A stretch of 64,000 nucleotides of DNA from Desulfarculaceae bacterium (GTDB taxonomy: Bacteria; Desulfobacterota; Desulfarculia; Desulfarculales; Desulfarculaceae). Made by a program: the position numbers and the translations under genes. The stretch lies in the NCBI GenBank assembly GCA_020444545.1, contig JAHLKT010000002.1, forward strand, positions 1 through 64,000, given 5' to 3'. The notes under the pieces are model-generated. The model saw only the letters and a program-made list of their open reading frames with translations, was not told the DNA's origin and did no database searches. Of this stretch, positions 3,726-20,138 are shown in pieces; the first letter of the stretch is position 1; the number at the start of each line of letters is the position of its first letter.

Positions 3726-4610
3726 TCAGGCCGTACGGGGTTCCGGATCGGGTTCGGGCTCCGGATCCGGATCGGGTTCGGGCTCGGAGGGGGCCTCCGG
3801 GGCTGCTTCCTCGGTGGGCTCGGGCTCGGGGGCGGCAGCCTCCTCCGCCGCGGCCTCCTGGAGCTCGGGGGACGCGGCGGCCTGATCGCCCTCGGGCTGG
3901 GGCGGCTCCAAAAGGGGCTTGCGCACCGGCTGGCGGGCCACGGCGGCGGCCTCCTCCAGCACCTTTTGCTCCGCTTCGCTCAGGGGCTTAAGCGGGGTCT
4001 CCAAGGGGATGAGATCGTCCAGGGAGGGAGCGGCGGGCACGCCCAGGGGCAGGCCCGGGGCTTCGTCGTCGGTGGGGTCGCCGTCGATGCCGGCCAGGTT
4101 CTCCAGCTCCTCCACGGTGGGCAGGTCCTTCAGGTCCTGAAGGTCGAACACCTCCAAAAAGCGGCGGGTGGTGGAGTAGATCAGAGGCTTGCCGGGCAGG
4201 TCCTTGCGCCCCGCCACCCGGATGAGGCCCTTTTCCATGAGGGTGCGCAGGATGCCGCCCACCTCCACCCCGCGGATGCGCTCCACCTCGGCCTTCAAGA
4301 CCGGCTGCTTGTAGGCCACGATGGCCAGGGTCTCCAGGGCGGCCTTGGACAAGCGGGTGACCTGCTGCTTGCGGAGCTTGCGCAGCCAGTAGGCCAGGTT
4401 GGGCTTGGTGCGGAAGCTGAAGCCGCCGGCCACGGCCACCAGCTCGAAGGAGCGCTCCATTTGCTGGTACTCCTCGATCAGCTGGTCCAGGGCCTCCTTG
4501 ACCGCCGCCCGGTCCTCGGCCTCCATCACCTGGCAGATCTGGGCCAGGCTCAGGGGGCTGTCCGAGACGAACAGCAGCGCCTCCACGATTCTTTTGGTGT
4601 CCCGGCTCAA
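3726..4610 (-). CDS. scpB: Segregation and condensation protein B
   Basis: About 294 residues. ScpB binds ScpA and SMC and controls chromosome condensation and partition. Residues about 1-185 hold the two winged-helix domains (RIVEALLFVSDSPLSLAQI; ETLAIVAYKQPVLKAEVERIRG; GLIRVAGRKDLPGKPLIYSTT). The rest is a long acidic, Pro/Glu/Ala-rich tail ending in alternating Pro-Glu and Pro-Asp, so the protein exceeds the usual length near 200. The proposed start is TTG at 4610, overlapping the scpA stop as TTGA. An upstream ATG at 4667 lies deep within scpA and is unlikely. GGGAGAGCGAGG precedes the TTG. Confidence 0.9.
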   Translation of the reverse strand: MSRDTKRIVEALLFVSDSPLSLAQICQVMEAEDRAAVKEALDQLIEEYQQMERSFELVAVAGGFSFRTKPNLAYWLRKLRKQQVTRLSKAALETLAIVAYKQPVLKAEVERIRGVEVGGILRTLMEKGLIRVAGRKDLPGKPLIYSTTRRFLEVFDLQDLKDLPTVEELENLAGIDGDPTDDEAPGLPLGVPAAPSLDDLIPLETPLKPLSEAEQKVLEEAAAVARQPVRKPLLEPPQPEGDQAAASPELQEAAAEEAAAPEPEPTEEAAPEAPSEPEPDPDPEPEPDPEPRTA

Positions 4611-5377
4611 GCCTCGCTCTCCCGTTCTCCGGCCGAAATTTGGAAATACACGCGCAGCACGCCCCACTGGGCTTCCTGGCCCGGCGGCGCGGCCATCCGC
4701 TCCTGGTAGAGCCGGATGAGGCCCAGGCGGGTCAGCTCCAGGAGGGCCAGGAAGGTGACCACCAGTTGGGGCCGGGAGCGCGCCTTTTCGAAGAACTCTT
4801 CAAAGGTCATGGTTTGGCGGCGGCGCAAAAGTTCCAGCATCTGACTGATGCGGTCCTCCAGGGAGACCCGGTCCTTGGGCAGCTCCAGCACCATCTGCTC
4901 GTGGCGGCGGGTCATGAGCTGGCGGAAGGCCTCGATCAGCTCGAAGACGCCCGCCTCGATGACCTCCTCCTGGTCGGCCTTGGCCTTTTCCAGCTCCTTG
5001 TGGCCGCCCCCGCGCGCGAACACGTCGCGGTCCAACCACACCCGCTGCTCCAGCTTGTCGGCCGCGGCCTTGATGCGCAGGTGCTCCTTGAGCCGCTCCA
5101 CCAGGTCGGTGCGGGGGTCGTCCTCCTGCTCGTCCTCGCTGGAGTCGTAGGAAGGCAGGAGCATCCGGCTCTTGATGTGCAGCAGGGTGGCGGCCATGAC
5201 CAGAAAGTCGCCGGCCACCCCGATGGACAGATCGCGCATCAGGTCCAGGTACTCCAGGTACTGATGGGTGATCAGGGCCACCGGGATGTCGTAGATGTCC
5301 ACCTCGTTCTTGCGGATGAGGTGCAACAGAAGGTCCAGGGGACCTTCGAAGATTTCTAGTTTGACGGCTACATCCAT
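4607..5377 (-). CDS. scpA: Segregation and condensation protein A
   Basis: 256 residues. ScpA is the kleisin that bridges the SMC heads. The N-terminus shows the family start LEIFEGPLDLLLHLIRKNEVDIYDIPVA (quoted in part), followed by the ALITHQYLEYLDLM helix. The C-terminal winged helix ends with FLALLELTRLGLIRLYQ. The middle is charged and helical, as expected. The stop overlaps the scpB start by TTGA, so the two are translationally coupled. An M50 protease gene ends 15 bases upstream. Confidence 0.93.
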   Translation of the reverse strand: MDVAVKLEIFEGPLDLLLHLIRKNEVDIYDIPVALITHQYLEYLDLMRDLSIGVAGDFLVMAATLLHIKSRMLLPSYDSSEDEQEDDPRTDLVERLKEHLRIKAAADKLEQRVWLDRDVFARGGGHKELEKAKADQEEVIEAGVFELIEAFRQLMTRRHEQMVLELPKDRVSLEDRISQMLELLRRRQTMTFEEFFEKARSRPQLVVTFLALLELTRLGLIRLYQERMAAPPGQEAQWGVLRVYFQISAGERESEA

Positions 5378-5392
5378 GCCCGGCCCACCTCT

Positions 5393-6064
5393 TTAGTAGG
5401 GCAACAACAGGTTTAGCACGGAATGGGCCGGATAGAGAACCAGGATGCTGATGAGGTCCGGCATCCCCGGCAACCAGCGGGGCAAGAAGATCAGGGCCAG
5501 CAGGATGACGAAGCCGTAGCGGCTTAGCTCCTGGTAGCGCATCGCCGCCCGGGGGCTGAGGAGCCCGGCCAGGATGCCCGAGCCGTCCAGGGGCGGCAGG
5601 GGGATCAGGTTGAAAAAGGCCAGGATCACGTTGACCGTGACCCCGGTGAGGAACATCTGGGCCAGGAACCACTTCCAGGTGGCGTAGCCCGCGAAGACCC
5701 CGCTGCTAACCAGGAAGTAGAGCACCACCGCGATGACGATGGCGAACAGGATGTTGCTCACCGGCCCGGCGGCCGAGATCCAGATCATGTCGCGGCGGGG
5801 ATCGCGCAAGCGGCGTCCGTCCACGGGCACCGGCTTGGCCCAGCCGAAGCCCGCCCCGAACCAGGCGGTGACGAAGAACACCAGGGTGCCGGCCGGGTCC
5901 AGATGGCGCAGGGGGTTTAGGCTCAGGCGGCCGCGCATCTTGGCGGTGCCGTCGCCCCGAAGCCAGGCCACCAGGGCGTGGGAGGCCTCGTGCACCGTGA
6001 GGGCCATGAGGATGGGCGGGGCCAATACGGCCACCTTGATGAGGAAATCGGTTATGCCACCCAT
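5393..6064 (-). CDS. Site-2 protease family membrane metallopeptidase (M50)
   Basis: A 223-residue polytopic membrane protein. The zinc-binding HExxH is HEASH (H25, E26, H29) in the first membrane segment, and the third ligand is D160 in NLIPLPPLDGSG. Length and arrangement fit the short M50B group of site-2 proteases without a PDZ domain. The substrate is unknown. Its ATG overlaps the stop of the tRNA nucleotidyltransferase by one base (TAATG), so the two are coupled. In many delta-group genomes this gene sits directly upstream of scpA, as here. Confidence 0.88.
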   Translation of the reverse strand: MGGITDFLIKVAVLAPPILMALTVHEASHALVAWLRGDGTAKMRGRLSLNPLRHLDPAGTLVFFVTAWFGAGFGWAKPVPVDGRRLRDPRRDMIWISAAGPVSNILFAIVIAVVLYFLVSSGVFAGYATWKWFLAQMFLTGVTVNVILAFFNLIPLPPLDGSGILAGLLSPRAAMRYQELSRYGFVILLALIFLPRWLPGMPDLISILVLYPAHSVLNLLLPY

Positions 6065-8724
6065 TACGCCGTCGACTCCTCCGGAGAAAATTCGCTATGC
6101 ACCAACTGAACCTCCTGCTCCTTGGTGAGCACTTCGCCGTCCAGGCGGGCCGCCTGCACCCGGTCCAAGATGCGCTTGAACAAGGGGCCGGGCCTGAAGC
6201 CCATGGCCTTCAAGTCGTCGCCGCCCAGCTCGGGCCGCACCCGGGCCAGGCTGGTCAGATATTGGCTCACCGCCCGCTTGGCCCACTGGCGGGTGGCTTT
6301 GGCCATGATGAACAACTGATACTCCGGGGCCAGGGGATGCAGCCGGAAGTATATCTCCGAGGCGCAGGGTTTCTTGCGCTGCAACAGGTTGAGCGATTGC
6401 AGGGCCCGTTGCAGCTCGGCCTCCATCTCCTCGCGCTGCTTGGGCGAAAAGCCCAAACGGCGGCCCAGGGCCTGGCGCTGATCCGCTTCCAGGCAGTCGC
6501 CCAGGCCCAGGTAGTATACCAGCCATTGGCTGACCGGCTGGTCCAGGAAGGAAAGGCGGTGCCAGGCCAGGGCCTCTTCCAGGTCCTCCAGCAGCTCCTC
6601 ATCTTTGGGCAAGATCTTCAGCTCGGGGTTGAACACGTACAGGAGCTTGAGCTCCCGAAGGCGGCGCAGGCAGTCCACGGCCCGCTCTTCCTCCAGCATC
6701 TGGCGGAACTCGCCGAAGAGCCGCCTGCCGGAGAGGCGCTTGAAGGCCTGAATCTTGTTGGCGTTCTTGATCAGCCCCTCGGTGAGCTTGCCGATGCGGA
6801 AGCCGAAGCGCTGCTCAAAGCGCACCGCCCGGAACACGCGGGTGGGGTCTTCCACAAAGGAAAGGTTGTGCAGCACCCGCACCGCCTTTTCCTTGATATC
6901 GCGCAAGCCGTCGAAGAAGTCCACCAACTGGCCGAAGCCCTCGGGGTTGAGCACCACGGCCAGGGTGTTGATGGTGAAGTCACGGCGGTAAAGGTCCAGC
7001 TTGAGGCTGGACATCTCCACCACCGGCAGGGCGGCCGGGGAGTCGTAGTACTCCAGGCGGGCGGTGGCCACGTCCATGCTCAGGCCGGACTCGAAGGTGA
7101 GGTTGGCGGTGTTGAACTTCTTGTGGGTGCGCACCTTGACCCCGGGGTGCAGCTCGCCGTAGCGGCGGGCAAAGGCGATGCCGTCGCCCTCCACCACGAT
7201 GTCCAGGTCCAGGTTCTCCCGCCGGAGGAACAGATCGCGCACCGAGCCGCCCACCAGATAGGTCTTGAACTCCAGGTCCCGGGCCACCGAGCCCATCTCC
7301 TTGAGGATATTCATGACCCGCCGGGGCAGGCGCTCGCCCATGAGGCTCTTGATGTTCTTGTTGCGCACCGGGCGGGGGGCCTCGTGGCGCTCGGTGATCA
7401 GCGGGTTTTCGATCAAGGTGTTAAGCAGGTCGGTGCGGGTGATCACCCCCAGGAGCTTGGGGCCGTCCATCACCGGCACCAGGCGCATGCGGCGCTCCAC
7501 CACCGCCTCTTCCACCTCCACCAGGGTGGCGTTGGGCGAGAGCACCTCCACGCCCGGGGTCATGTACTCCACCACCGAGAGATCGCCCAGGCCGTGGAAC
7601 ACCGCCTTTTCCACGGTCATGCGGGTGATGATGCCCCGCACCTCGCCCCCGCCGCTCACCGGCATGACGTTGACGTTGTAGCGGGTGAGCACCTGCTCCG
7701 CCTCCTTGAGGGTGGTCTCGGGCGGCACGGTGATCACTGGGCTGGTCATCAGGTCCTTGGCCAGGATGGTGGGGTTGATGGAGCTGAGCAAGAGGCTCTT
7801 GAGCCGCTCGCCAGCCTCCACCAGGGTCATGTCTTTGAGGGTGGCGCTGGCCGCGCTGGGGTGGCCGCCGCCGCCCATGGCCGAGGCGATGGTCCCGGCG
7901 TCCACCTCGGGCAGGCGGGAGCGGGCCACCAGGTAGATGCGCCCCTCCATGCGGGCCAGGGCGAACAGGGCGTCCAGGTTCTCCATGTCCATGAATTTGT
8001 GCACCAGCACCGCGAACTCGGGCACGTAGGTATCGCGGCTCACCTGGCTGACCACGATGGAGATCCCGCCCACGTTCACCGTCTCGGCCGCCTCGATGAG
8101 GTCGTGCAACAGGCCCACTTCGTCGGCGCTGAGCTCCCGGGTGATGAGGTCGGAGATCACGTTGAGCATGGCCCCCTGGCTGACCAGCCAGGCGGCGGCC
8201 TCGAAATCGGCCGGGGTGGCCGAGACGAAGTGGAAGGAGCCGGTGTCCTCGTAGATGCCCAGGGCCAGAATGGTGGCCTCGTCCTCGCTGAGGGCGATGC
8301 CCTCCTTGCGCAGCAGCTTGGTCATGATGGTCACCGTGGACCCCACCATTTCCACGATCTGCAAATCGGCCTGAACGTCGTTGTCCGAGTCCGGGTGATG
8401 GTCGTAGGCGATCACCTCCACCTCGGGTTCGTCGGCCAGGCGGGCCAGCTCGCCGATGCGGTCCTTTTGGCGGTTGTCCACCAGGATCAGGCGGCCCACC
8501 CGCTCAAAGGGCACCTGCTTGATCTTCACGAAGTTGTAGAGAAAGCTCACCGACTCCACGAAGAAGTTGCGCAGATTGCGCTCCTGGGCCCCGGGGAAGA
8601 CCAGCATGGCCTCGGGGTAGAGCTTGGCCGCGGCCAGCATGGAGGCCAGGGCGTCGTAGTCCGCATTGACGTGGGTGGTGATCACTTCCAGGTCGCGGGG
8701 CGGTTTTTTCTGGGTGTCGCTCAC
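6064..8724 (-). CDS. DHH-CBS-nucleotidyltransferase fusion, tRNA CCA-end (A-adding type) enzyme
   Basis: 886 residues with four parts. The DHH phosphoesterase domain has THVNADYDA near residue 18 and YDHHPDSDND near 107. A DHHA1-like part follows with GGGGHPSAASATL near 284. Two CBS domains span about residues 315-435. The last part is a class II polymerase-beta nucleotidyltransferase with VGGSVRDLF (491-499), the catalytic pair D506/D508 in LDLDIVVEGD, then tRNA-binding helices. Such fusions are thought to add the terminal A of tRNA CCA, with a separate enzyme adding CC; this is family knowledge, not shown here. The start is GTG at 8724. The downstream protease gene is coupled to its stop. 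Confidence 0.88.
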   Translation of the reverse strand: MSDTQKKPPRDLEVITTHVNADYDALASMLAAAKLYPEAMLVFPGAQERNLRNFFVESVSFLYNFVKIKQVPFERVGRLILVDNRQKDRIGELARLADEPEVEVIAYDHHPDSDNDVQADLQIVEMVGSTVTIMTKLLRKEGIALSEDEATILALGIYEDTGSFHFVSATPADFEAAAWLVSQGAMLNVISDLITRELSADEVGLLHDLIEAAETVNVGGISIVVSQVSRDTYVPEFAVLVHKFMDMENLDALFALARMEGRIYLVARSRLPEVDAGTIASAMGGGGHPSAASATLKDMTLVEAGERLKSLLLSSINPTILAKDLMTSPVITVPPETTLKEAEQVLTRYNVNVMPVSGGGEVRGIITRMTVEKAVFHGLGDLSVVEYMTPGVEVLSPNATLVEVEEAVVERRMRLVPVMDGPKLLGVITRTDLLNTLIENPLITERHEAPRPVRNKNIKSLMGERLPRRVMNILKEMGSVARDLEFKTYLVGGSVRDLFLRRENLDLDIVVEGDGIAFARRYGELHPGVKVRTHKKFNTANLTFESGLSMDVATARLEYYDSPAALPVVEMSSLKLDLYRRDFTINTLAVVLNPEGFGQLVDFFDGLRDIKEKAVRVLHNLSFVEDPTRVFRAVRFEQRFGFRIGKLTEGLIKNANKIQAFKRLSGRRLFGEFRQMLEEERAVDCLRRLRELKLLYVFNPELKILPKDEELLEDLEEALAWHRLSFLDQPVSQWLVYYLGLGDCLEADQRQALGRRLGFSPKQREEMEAELQRALQSLNLLQRKKPCASEIYFRLHPLAPEYQLFIMAKATRQWAKRAVSQYLTSLARVRPELGGDDLKAMGFRPGPLFKRILDRVQAARLDGEVLTKEQEVQLVHSEFSPEESTA

Positions 8725-17006: not shown

Positions 17007-18167
17007 ATGGCGAATCAGTTCGCGACCGAGGGCATCAAACGCATGGTGTTCGGGCGGGGCAGCGCGGCCAAGCTGGGCGAGGAATTGGGCCTGATCAAGG
17101 CCGAGAAAGTTTTGCTGGTCCTGGACCCCAACCTGGCCGAGAGCGATATAATCAAGCCCGCCCTGGACAGCCTGGCCGCGGCCGGCATCTCAAGCGAAGT
17201 CTTCAGCGACCTGACCCGCGAGCCGGAGCCGGCCGAGGCCGACGCCGCCGCCGCCCAGGGCCGCGCCTGCGGGGCTCAGGCCGTGGTGGGCATCGGCGGA
17301 GGCAGCGCCCTGGACCTGGCCAAGGCCGCCGGGGTGCTCATCACCAATCCGGGTCAATGCACCGACTACGTGGGCCTGGACAAGGTGACCCAGCCCGGCC
17401 TGCCGGTAATCTGCCTGCCCACCACCGCGGGCACCGGCAGCGAGGTGACCTTCACCGCCGTGTTCACCCGGCGCTCGGACCAGTTCAAGGGCGGCATCAA
17501 CGGCCGTCTGCTCTACCCCCACGCCGCCATCCTGGACCCCCTGCTCACCGTGAGCTGCCCGGCCTACGTCACCGCCATCACCGGCATGGACGCTCTGACC
17601 CACGCCATGGAGGCCTTCACCAGCCGCAAAGCCCACGCCCTGAGCGACCTCAACGCCCTGGCGGCCATCGAGCTGATAGGGCGGCATTTGCGCGCGGCCG
17701 TGGCCCACGGCGAGAACCTTCAGGCCCGCGAGGGCATGATGCTGGGCTCCCATCTGGCGGGCCTGGCCCTGGCCCAGGCCGGGGTGGGCGCGGTGCACGC
17801 CATGGCCTATCCCCTGGGCGCCTTCTATGACATCCCCCACGGCGAGGCCAACGCTCTCTTGCTGCCCTACGTGCTGCGCTTCAACCTCATGGCCTGCCCC
17901 GAGCGTTTCGCGGACATGGCCTACGCTCTGGCCGAGCTGCCCGACGATCTGAGCACCGCCGAGGCGGCGGCCGCTTGCATCGAGGAGGTGGCCGAGCTGG
18001 GCCTGGACGTGGGCATCCCCACCAGCCTGCGCCAGCTGGACATCCCCGAGGATTCGGTGCCCAAGATGGCCGAGAAGGCCATGACCGTGGCCGTGCCCAT
18101 CGCCAACAACCCGCGCCAGGTCACTGCCCAGGACCTGGAGATCATCTACCGCGAGGCCTTCATCTAA
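17007..18167 (+). CDS. kdnB: Iron-containing alcohol dehydrogenase, probable KdnB (Kdo 8-dehydrogenase)
   Basis: 386 residues from ATG 17007; the longer open frame upstream overlaps pfk and is not used. Group III metal-dependent ADH motifs are present: GIGGGSALDLAKAAG for NAD(P), PTTAGTGSEVT, GMDALTHAMEAF, and the metal-binding His in AVHAMAYPLGAFYDIPHGEANALLLP (quoted in part). In Shewanella oneidensis a protein of this family (KdnB) oxidises Kdo at C8 to the aldehyde, which KdnA then aminates. The order here, ADH, DegT-type aminotransferase, kdsB, is the same set, which is why KdnB is proposed. Without that context it would be just an Fe-ADH. A weak TTTACA-16-TACCAT promoter lies near 16896. 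Confidence 0.75.
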   Translation: MANQFATEGIKRMVFGRGSAAKLGEELGLIKAEKVLLVLDPNLAESDIIKPALDSLAAAGISSEVFSDLTREPEPAEADAAAAQGRACGAQAVVGIGGGSALDLAKAAGVLITNPGQCTDYVGLDKVTQPGLPVICLPTTAGTGSEVTFTAVFTRRSDQFKGGINGRLLYPHAAILDPLLTVSCPAYVTAITGMDALTHAMEAFTSRKAHALSDLNALAAIELIGRHLRAAVAHGENLQAREGMMLGSHLAGLALAQAGVGAVHAMAYPLGAFYDIPHGEANALLLPYVLRFNLMACPERFADMAYALAELPDDLSTAEAAAACIEEVAELGLDVGIPTSLRQLDIPEDSVPKMAEKAMTVAVPIANNPRQVTAQDLEIIYREAFI

Positions 18168-18195
18168 ACCCAGCAGCCTTTGAGGAGAATAAGCC

Positions 18196-19389
18196 ATGCC
18201 CGGATTCGAGTGGCTCGGCAAGGAAGAAAGCGACGCGGTCGCCGAGGTTATGCAGCGGGGAGTGCTCTTCCGCTACGAGTTCGATGAGCAGCGCCAGGGC
18301 ATCTACCTGGTCAAGCAATTTGAGGAGCAGATGGCCGCCTACACCGGCGCGGCGGCGGGCTGCGCGGTCAACAGCGGCACCGCCGCGGTCAAGGTGGGCC
18401 TGGCCGCCCTGGGCGTGGGCTACGGCGACGAGGTGATCACCCAGGGCTTCACCTTCGTGGCCACCTGGGAAGCCATCATGGACTGCGGGGCCAAGCCGGT
18501 GTTCTGCGAGGTCGACGAGACCCTGTGCATGGACCCCAAGGACCTGGAAAAGAAGATTACCGACAAGACCAAGTGCATCGTGCCGGTGCACATGATGGGG
18601 GCCCCGGCCCGCATCAAGGAGATCAAGGCCATTGCCGACGCCCACGGCATCGCGGTGATGGAAGACAGCGCCCAGGCCCTGGGCTGCACCCTCGACGGCC
18701 AGCACGTGGGCACCTTCGGGGACATGGGCTCCTTCAGCTTCGACGCGGTGAAGACCCTGACCACCGGCGAAGGCGGCATGGTCATCAGCAAGGACCCCAA
18801 GCTGGTGCTCAATGCCAGCGAGTACCAGGACCACGGCCACGACCACAAGCCTGTGGGCCGGGGCAACGAGGGCCGCCGCTTCATCGGCTTTAACTACCGC
18901 ATGATGGAGCTGCAAGGCGCCCTGGGCCTGGCGCAGCTCAAGAAGCTGCCGGACATGGTGGAGACCATGCGGGCCAACAAGGCCGCCCTTAAAGAGGCGC
19001 TCAAGCGGGTACCCGGCGTCACCTTCCGCGAGGTGCTGGACGAGGCGGGCGACTCGGCCACCTTCATCGCCTGGTTCCACGAGACCCCGGAGCAGACGGC
19101 CAAGTTCGCGGAGCTCCTGGCCGAGCACGGCGCGCCGGCCATCCCCTGGGGGGCCAACACCTGGCACGCCTATCCCCACTGGGAGCACCTGCACGCCGGA
19201 GCCAGCCTGCCCAGCGGCGGGTGGCCCTTTGCCCGGCCCGACGGCCCGGCCGAGTACGATCCGGCCGCGCTGCCCCAGACCGAGGCCATCCTCTCCCGCT
19301 GCCTGAGCTGGCAGATCATGCTGGGCTGGGACGAGGCCAAGCTCAAGCAGATGACCGAGGCGATCAACAAGGCCGTGGCGGAATTTTAA
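18196..19389 (+). CDS. kdnA: DegT/DnrJ/EryC1 aminotransferase, probable KdnA (8-amino-Kdo synthase)
   Basis: 397 residues. A PLP-dependent sugar aminotransferase of the DegT family: AVNSGTAAVKVGLAALG, the PLP-contact Asp157 in VMEDSAQALG, and the Schiff-base Lys186 in FSFDAVKTLTTGEGGM. In Shewanella KdnA transfers an amino group from glutamate to the C8 aldehyde of oxidised Kdo, giving 8-amino-3,8-dideoxy-manno-octulosonate. The flanking Fe-ADH and kdsB genes support that role over an O-antigen amino sugar. GAGGAGAATAAGCC precedes the ATG, and kdsB starts two bases after its stop. Function inferred from context and family. Confidence 0.75.
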   Translation: MPGFEWLGKEESDAVAEVMQRGVLFRYEFDEQRQGIYLVKQFEEQMAAYTGAAAGCAVNSGTAAVKVGLAALGVGYGDEVITQGFTFVATWEAIMDCGAKPVFCEVDETLCMDPKDLEKKITDKTKCIVPVHMMGAPARIKEIKAIADAHGIAVMEDSAQALGCTLDGQHVGTFGDMGSFSFDAVKTLTTGEGGMVISKDPKLVLNASEYQDHGHDHKPVGRGNEGRRFIGFNYRMMELQGALGLAQLKKLPDMVETMRANKAALKEALKRVPGVTFREVLDEAGDSATFIAWFHETPEQTAKFAELLAEHGAPAIPWGANTWHAYPHWEHLHAGASLPSGGWPFARPDGPAEYDPAALPQTEAILSRCLSWQIMLGWDEAKLKQMTEAINKAVAEF

Positions 19390-19391
19390 TA

Positions 19392-20138
19392 ATGGCCCTG
19401 CACGTGATCATCCCGGCCCGTTACGGGTCCAGCCGCTTCCCGGGCAAGCCCCTGGTTTTGATCGCGGGCAAGCCCATGATCCAGCACGTGATGGAGCGGG
19501 CGGCCAAGGCCCAGGGCGTCCGGACCGTGGCCGCGGCCACGGACGACCGCCGGGTGGCTCAGGCGGTGGAGGCCTTCGGGGGCACGGTGCTCATGACCCC
19601 CGAGGCCTGCCGCAGCGGCTCGGACCGGGTGGCCGTGGCCGCCGACATGCTGGGCCTGGGGCCCGACGAGCTGGTGGCCAACGTGCAGGGCGACCAGCCC
19701 CTGCTGCCGCCCGAGGTGCTGGAGCAGTGCGCCGCGCCGCTCATGGCCGAGCCCGGCCTGGGCATGTCCACCCCGGTGGTGGCCATCAAGATCCCCGGCG
19801 AGATAAACGACACCAACCATGTGAAAACGGTAATGGGCGCCAATGGCGACGCCCTGTACTTCTCGCGCCTGGCAGTGCCCTTCCCGCGCGACGGCGAACA
19901 GATCACCTATTACAAGCACCTGGGGGTCTATATCTTCCGGCGCTCCTTCCTGGCCGAGTTCGCGGCCCTGCCCACCGGCCGTCTGGAACAGTACGAGAAG
20001 CTGGAGCAGCTCCGGGCCCTGGAATACGGCCACGCGGTACGCTGCGTGATAACCGACTACGACTCTCCCGAGGTTGACCGCCCGGCCGACGCCAAGCGGG
20101 TGGAGGCCATCCTGCAGCAGGCCGGGGAGGGCTGGTAG
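19392..20138 (+). CDS. kdsB: CMP-Kdo / CMP-Kdo8N synthetase (KdsB family)
   Basis: 248 residues. It transfers CMP from CTP to Kdo or, given its neighbours, probably to 8-amino-Kdo, activating it for transfer to lipid A. Motifs: IPARYGSSRFPGKPL at the N-terminus, the AATDDRRV and GSDRVA stretches, NVQGDQPLL and YYKHLGVYIFRR. It is separated from kdnA by two bases, so co-translated. Length and motifs are normal for KdsB. Whether it prefers Kdo8N over Kdo cannot be told by eye. Confidence 0.92.
   Translation: MALHVIIPARYGSSRFPGKPLVLIAGKPMIQHVMERAAKAQGVRTVAAATDDRRVAQAVEAFGGTVLMTPEACRSGSDRVAVAADMLGLGPDELVANVQGDQPLLPPEVLEQCAAPLMAEPGLGMSTPVVAIKIPGEINDTNHVKTVMGANGDALYFSRLAVPFPRDGEQITYYKHLGVYIFRRSFLAEFAALPTGRLEQYEKLEQLRALEYGHAVRCVITDYDSPEVDRPADAKRVEAILQQAGEGW

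Follow-up and report, generated by a model that had tools for sequence, protein, structure and literature searches.

Three adjacent genes in a 64,000-nucleotide stretch of DNA from a Desulfarculaceae bacterium (hereafter, the window) probably constitute a second type of pathway for the synthesis of 8-amino-3,8-dideoxy-Kdo (Kdo8N), in which the function of KdnB would be fulfilled by an iron-type alcohol dehydrogenase (FeADH) from another subfamily of the same superfamily. According to this scheme, the dehydrogenase would use NAD+ to oxidize free Kdo at its C8 primary alcohol, yielding an aldehyde; KdnA would transaminate this aldehyde to Kdo8N; and KdsB would convert Kdo8N, and perhaps Kdo as well, to a CMP-sugar, ready to be transferred to lipid A. 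The substrate, product and cofactor of the oxidation and amination steps, the specificity of KdsB and the presence of Kdo8N in the lipopolysaccharide (LPS) are all predictions of the scheme.

Kdo serves as the anchoring sugar of the glycan coat on the outer membrane. The KdsB of Shewanella prefers Kdo8N, and Shewanella kdnA and kdnB mutants are more sensitive to polymyxin and bile. Earlier publications term Kdo8N in the LPS a hallmark of Shewanella (PMC6357163), state that all Gram-negative bacteria save Shewanella use Kdo (PMC4465638), and list KdnB under the name FeADH3 while placing Kdo8N in ‘members of the Shewanella genus’ (PMC5125639); a kdnB is also named in Leptospira gene lists (PMC8510873). 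For Kdo8N of Shewanella HM13, the NMR signal of C8 is reported at about 44–45 ppm. The open-licence literature yielded no paper on Kdo8N listed as dealing with this phylum, nor any on Kdo8N together with Desulfo-, and, as far as this literature shows, a Kdo 8-oxidase candidate of the window type is apparently not in print.

Gene order and kinship of the aminotransferase

The three genes, which are flanked by a divergent PFK-like gene and recN, lie on the same strand and are separated by gaps of only 28 bases (FeADH–kdnA) and 2 bases (kdnA–kdsB), so that they are probably expressed as one transcript (Table 1). All three proteins receive the same family assignments from Pfam and from NCBIfam. 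The back-to-back arrangement of an FeADH, a DegT aminotransferase and KdsB, pointed out in the earlier note, corresponds to three plus-strand open reading frames and is not a chance one, because relatives keep the neighbourhood, with identities of 52%–90% for the three proteins. In one relative (G009), the dehydrogenase is located ~50 kb away from kdnA-kdsB, yet it retains 74% identity. No KdnA or KdnB equivalog in NCBIfam was matched over its cut-off, even when the Shewanella proteins served as queries, which places these two names out of reach of routine annotation from NCBIfam.

Table 1. Coordinates of the three genes and of selected residues, in window positions.
Feature	Position	Strand	Remarks
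Iron-containing alcohol dehydrogenase	17007-18167	+	386 aa; Pfam Fe-ADH
Codons of T150-N165 (pocket, N-domain side)	17454-17501	+	T150, V152, G163, N165 = FucO N151, V153, V164, V166
Metal ligands D195 and H199	17589-17603	+	= FucO D196, H200
Metal ligands H264 and H278	17796-17798 (H264), 17838-17840 (H278)	+	= FucO H263, H277
DegT/DnrJ/EryC1/StrS aminotransferase, predicted KdnA	18196-19389	+	397 aa; PLP-dependent, 8-dehydro-Kdo as predicted substrate
K186, PLP lysine by position	18751-18753	+	invariant in 169 aligned sequences
DHGHDH motif	18829-18846	+	marks KdnA vs other DegT
KdsB, CMP-Kdo synthetase	19392-20138	+	248 aa; over TIGR00466 cut-off

The window aminotransferase is, on sequence grounds, a true relative of Shewanella KdnA. 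Its best match in the PDB is 5K8B, the Shewanella KdnA (entry title: 8-amino-3,8-dideoxy-alpha-D-manno-octulosonate transaminase), with 339 bits over residues 1–396, the runner-up chain scoring 180 bits and covering residues 39–293. In a phylogenetic tree of 84 of the 101 available rows, with Shewanella-type rows thinned to every second, window-type and Shewanella-type sequences each form one clade; a split with support of 100/99 unites the two, plus one Chlorobiaceae protein, to the exclusion of 34 other DegT homologues. A second tree, with 85 rows, was built from every second window-paired row plus 8 Shewanella-type and 10 outgroup rows; it separates window and Shewanella KdnA from other DegT proteins at 99 SH-aLRT and places all the KdnB-paired sequences together in a single clade (support 100). 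The earlier note's assignment of this protein to KdnA is thus upheld by both the best solved-structure match and the tree.

Residue conservation agrees with the trees. Identity between window-type and Shewanella KdnA is ~41%–45%, and twelve residues stand out as KdnA-specific, each being conserved in 90% or more of either type but in no more than 25% of other DegT proteins; the KdnA-only residues, including DHGHDH, E92, D183, N321 and H331, are present in the window protein. The DHGHDH motif itself was found in 87 of 96 KdnA sequences of the phylum set (the 97th was omitted as a fragment) and in 35 of 37 Shewanella-type sequences, compared with none of 35 other DegT homologues. The named neighbours of KdnA belong mostly to Desulfobulbaceae and Desulfobacterales, which points to Desulfobacterota as the phylum. 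The window's genome encodes a second DegT aminotransferase (G000:C3:49243-50310, L029), 38% identical to the window KdnA, which adjoins sugar isomerase-like and radical SAM-like genes and falls outside the KdnA clade.

KdsB and other Kdo genes

The third protein is classified as an ordinary KdsB: its best solved relative is 1GQ9, it exceeds the TIGR00466 cut-off as expected of KdsB/KpsU CMP-Kdo synthetases, and no difference from this group survived testing. The preference for Kdo8N that had been ascribed to it found no backing, since neither a discriminating signature nor a clade withstood comparison. Specifically, no Kdo8N-specific clade was found in the KdsB tree, where KdnA-linked and KdnA-free sequences are unseparated and the KdsB of G053 groups with KdnA-free relatives. 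Asp224 was present in 25 of 25 KdnA-linked sequences vs 0 of 11 others in a first sample, the controls of which comprised 9 genomic sequences from one class and 2 PDB chains; as a reader of the 8-amino group it was rejected, 20 more KdnA-free genomes from other parts of the phylum carrying 14 Asp, 5 Glu and 1 Asn.

The Kdo machinery of the window's genome includes KdsA and two WaaA-like genes with the Kdo transferase N-domain (G000:C2:440932 and G000:C3:119186). A second KdsB (G000:C2:261536-262249, L002), 40% identical to the window KdsB and over the NCBIfam cut-offs, adjoins dehydrogenase-like and cyclase-like genes. The second KdsB and the two WaaA-like genes could mean that Kdo and Kdo8N are both used, with the second KdsB, and one of the two WaaA, serving Kdo and the window set serving Kdo8N, perhaps in another glycan. 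Such a division of labour would be compatible with the pathway proposed here, but it appears rather unlikely, considering that, of the 18 f1 genomes in which KdsB was matched at all, only 4 have two.

A dehydrogenase outside the KdnB clade with a KdnB-like pocket

The window FeADH is assigned to the iron-type (group III) alcohol dehydrogenases and is not an orthologue of KdnB. Among PDB sequences, 5K8C (KdnB) reaches 91 bits and ranks 34th of 41, compared with 271 bits for 1,3-propanediol oxidoreductase, which together with methanol dehydrogenase and FucO represents the closest solved relatives (36%–41% identity). Shewanella KdnB as a query matches 5K8C with 692 and 3RF7 with 664 bits, all other PDB sequences scoring at most 81. 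In two FeADH trees, the KdnB sequences form one fully supported, long-branched clade; the KdnA-linked window-type sequences form a clade of their own, with moderate support of 75/72 in a tree of 47 rows and 77 in one of 80 rows, for which the linked sequences (57 window-type, 21 KdnB-type) were thinned and locus L080 was omitted. The best FeADHs of KdnA-free genomes (6 of the 7 listed f10 genomes and nine others) all fall outside the window clade, and the NCBIfam matches of the window FeADH are all far below cut-off. Bit scores and clades alike thus speak against orthology to Shewanella KdnB. The earlier note had labelled the protein KdnB and had itself counted a grouping with unrelated alcohol dehydrogenases among the findings that would refute its reading; such a grouping is what we found. 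The functional half of the label, namely, oxidation of Kdo at C8, fares better, being supported by the exclusive pairing with KdnA and by the substrate pocket.

With FucO, 1,3-propanediol oxidoreductase and NAD-dependent methanol dehydrogenase, the window protein shares the fold family and the metal ligands; unlike this group, it belongs to a separate clade and its pocket differs at six or all seven of the positions compared. A crystallographic study of FucO describes Val153, Val164, Val166, Phe254, position 259 and Cys362 as pocket-lining and position 151 as specificity-changing (PMC10324492). The seven positions were taken whole from this source, although N165 had already been noticed, and FucO pocket positions were familiar, before the list was consulted. 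The window-type FeADHs read TVGNLVP (63 sequences, one of which departs, at N), identical at six of seven letters to the KdnB consensus TVGNIVP (33 sequences, with N in 26, I in 26 and P in 24), whereas the nearest paralogues (20 sequences) read IIGVFVL and FucO reads NVVVFLC. Mean identity of the window type to KdnB thus rises from 0.28 overall to 0.80 in the pocket, whereas to the nearest paralogues it falls from 0.45 to 0.29.

Alignment columns are not independent and the P values serve as a guide only, but seven columns drawn at random from 347 reached the observed pocket identity to KdnB with P = 0.00015, and none of 200,000 draws reached the contrast with the nearest paralogues (P = 0.00018 for another paralogue group); with draws limited to the 103 columns conserved in the window type, the identity test by itself was weak (P = 0.075) and the paralogue contrast gave P = 0.00004. 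Profile–profile alignment returned the same equivalences at all seven pocket positions and the four metal ligands. A blind count of residues exclusive to the window type and KdnB found one (N165), which is no excess over the 2, 1 and 0 seen in controls, and N165 was therefore retained solely within the pocket comparison.

Taken as a whole, the system resembles the Kdo8N pathway of Shewanella oneidensis (5K8B, 5K8C) in its KdnA homologue, iron-type alcohol dehydrogenase, adjacent KdsB and KdnB-like pocket letters, but differs in that the oxidase comes from another FeADH subfamily and is encoded upstream of kdnA, KdnB being downstream in the Shewanella loci L045 and L049. Conceivably, the substrate of the FeADH and KdnA could be CMP-Kdo or a different 3-deoxy sugar acid, so that the pair would provide an amino sugar other than Kdo8N for capsule, O antigen or core. 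The low identity between the two KdnA types would fit this possibility, as would a Chlorobiaceae locus in which genes for a related FeADH and for a KdnA-like enzyme accompany that of a NeuA-like cytidylyltransferase, suggesting that the module is usable with another sugar. However, kdsB accompanies kdnA in about half of the genomes (see below), DHGHDH and further KdnA-specific residues are common to the window and Shewanella proteins, and the FeADH pocket letters agree with those of KdnB, all of which makes a different sugar quite improbable. By its exclusive pairing with KdnA and its pocket, the window FeADH looks like a candidate second Kdo 8-oxidase.

Pairing and distribution of KdnA and dehydrogenase types

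KdnA was detected in 21 of 60 relatives (E <= 1e-60). Across the phylum, 97 of 394 genomes, from 62 of 248 genera, encode it at E <= 1e-75. The neighbourhoods of all 97 were examined, with KdnA typed by score against the window and Shewanella proteins using thresholds of our own choosing. Shewanella-type KdnA (n = 23) has KdnB directly downstream in 21 cases and no partner seen in 2; window-type KdnA (n = 70) has a window-type FeADH directly upstream in 55 and no partner seen in 15; and all four KdnA of ambiguous type have a window-type FeADH upstream. Not one of the 80 neighbouring pairs is mixed (21/21 with KdnB and 59/59 with the window type). The flanks examined ranged from 11 bases to ~3 kb on the shorter side, and some partners of the 17 unpaired KdnA may therefore have been missed. 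In 49 of the 97 genomes, kdsB lies within 2.6 kb of kdnA on the same strand.

Co-occurrence extends beyond direct linkage. Among the 60 relatives, an FeADH of at least 50% identity was found in 21, of which 20 also carry KdnA, the exception being G017, a genome that is 70% complete; of the 21 KdnA-bearing relatives, only G012, with a Shewanella-type KdnA, has no FeADH at this level. A search for unlinked partners covered 15 genomes, namely, 14 with a window-type KdnA and no neighbour seen, plus G009. All four f101 genomes and G009 proved to carry a window-type FeADH elsewhere in the genome, inside the window clade. The six f17 genomes, in which KdnA is ~60% identical, yielded no FeADH above 42% identity and full-length matches of at most 38%, and no window-type partner was found in G403, G101, G152 and G388, the last two being cases at contig ends. 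For Shewanella-type KdnA without a neighbour, KdnB was found elsewhere in the genome, at 50%–59% identity, in 15 of 16 Bacteroidota genomes and in G195; none was found in G440, and the match in G012 reached only 36%.

The two partner types are mutually exclusive, track the KdnA lineages and have pocket letters in common, which speaks for one reaction. That KdnA and KdsB make Kdo8N while the FeADH is an unrelated housekeeping enzyme encoded upstream, with Kdo oxidized by some other enzyme, is very improbable. Such a role would fit its best solved relatives (1,3-propanediol oxidoreductase, methanol dehydrogenase and FucO) and the f17 genomes, which do without it, but the FeADH is kept in 59 of 59 neighbouring pairs of the window KdnA lineage, with KdnB in none, persists in KdnA genomes when unlinked and contrasts in its pocket with paralogues. 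Of the three main branches of the KdnA tree, two include window-type pairing, which may thus be the older state.

Kdo8N is probably not a Shewanella speciality. On balance, we lean towards a broader view, in which two non-orthologous Kdo 8-oxidases with one pocket are each tied to their own KdnA lineage, the window type being the commoner and perhaps the older in this phylum, and Kdo8N occurs widely in the inner core of anaerobic Desulfobacterota and of many Bacteroidota. If so, a positively charged inner-core sugar could be present in a quarter of the sampled phylum genomes (97/394) and in many Bacteroidota, KdnB-based annotation would miss most Kdo8N genomes in this phylum, and Kdo-based labelling and LPS assays might mislead in these bacteria. 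Two enzyme lineages with one pocket would also offer a testable case of specificity that either converged or was retained.

Several loci depart from the common arrangements. In the f17 genomes (G106, G297, G201, G135, G158 and G070), no FeADH is encoded near the window-type KdnA gene, and in loci L031-L033, L035, L037 and L038 a window-type KdnA is encoded behind a panC-like gene with no FeADH nearby. Inspection by eye revealed no alternative dehydrogenase beside kdnA of Desulfobulbaceae, the neighbours being panC, panD-like, rsmJ-like and kdsB genes. Loci L039-L077, mostly from Bacteroidota, show a Shewanella-type KdnA in many Flavobacteriaceae and further Bacteroidota, with KdnB often elsewhere in the genome. 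In G012, a member of the window's own family, the window set is absent and a Shewanella-type KdnA is encoded behind a diverged kdsB (L028), which suggests replacement by transfer. Finally, locus L080 (positions 4126-7158) of an uncultured Chlorobiaceae bacterium encodes, in a row, a NeuA-like cytidylyltransferase, a diverged FeADH that is 27% identical overall to the window type and has its F149, F153, N165 and L255, and a KdnA-like enzyme, possibly representing the same oxidize-then-aminate module at work on another sugar acid.
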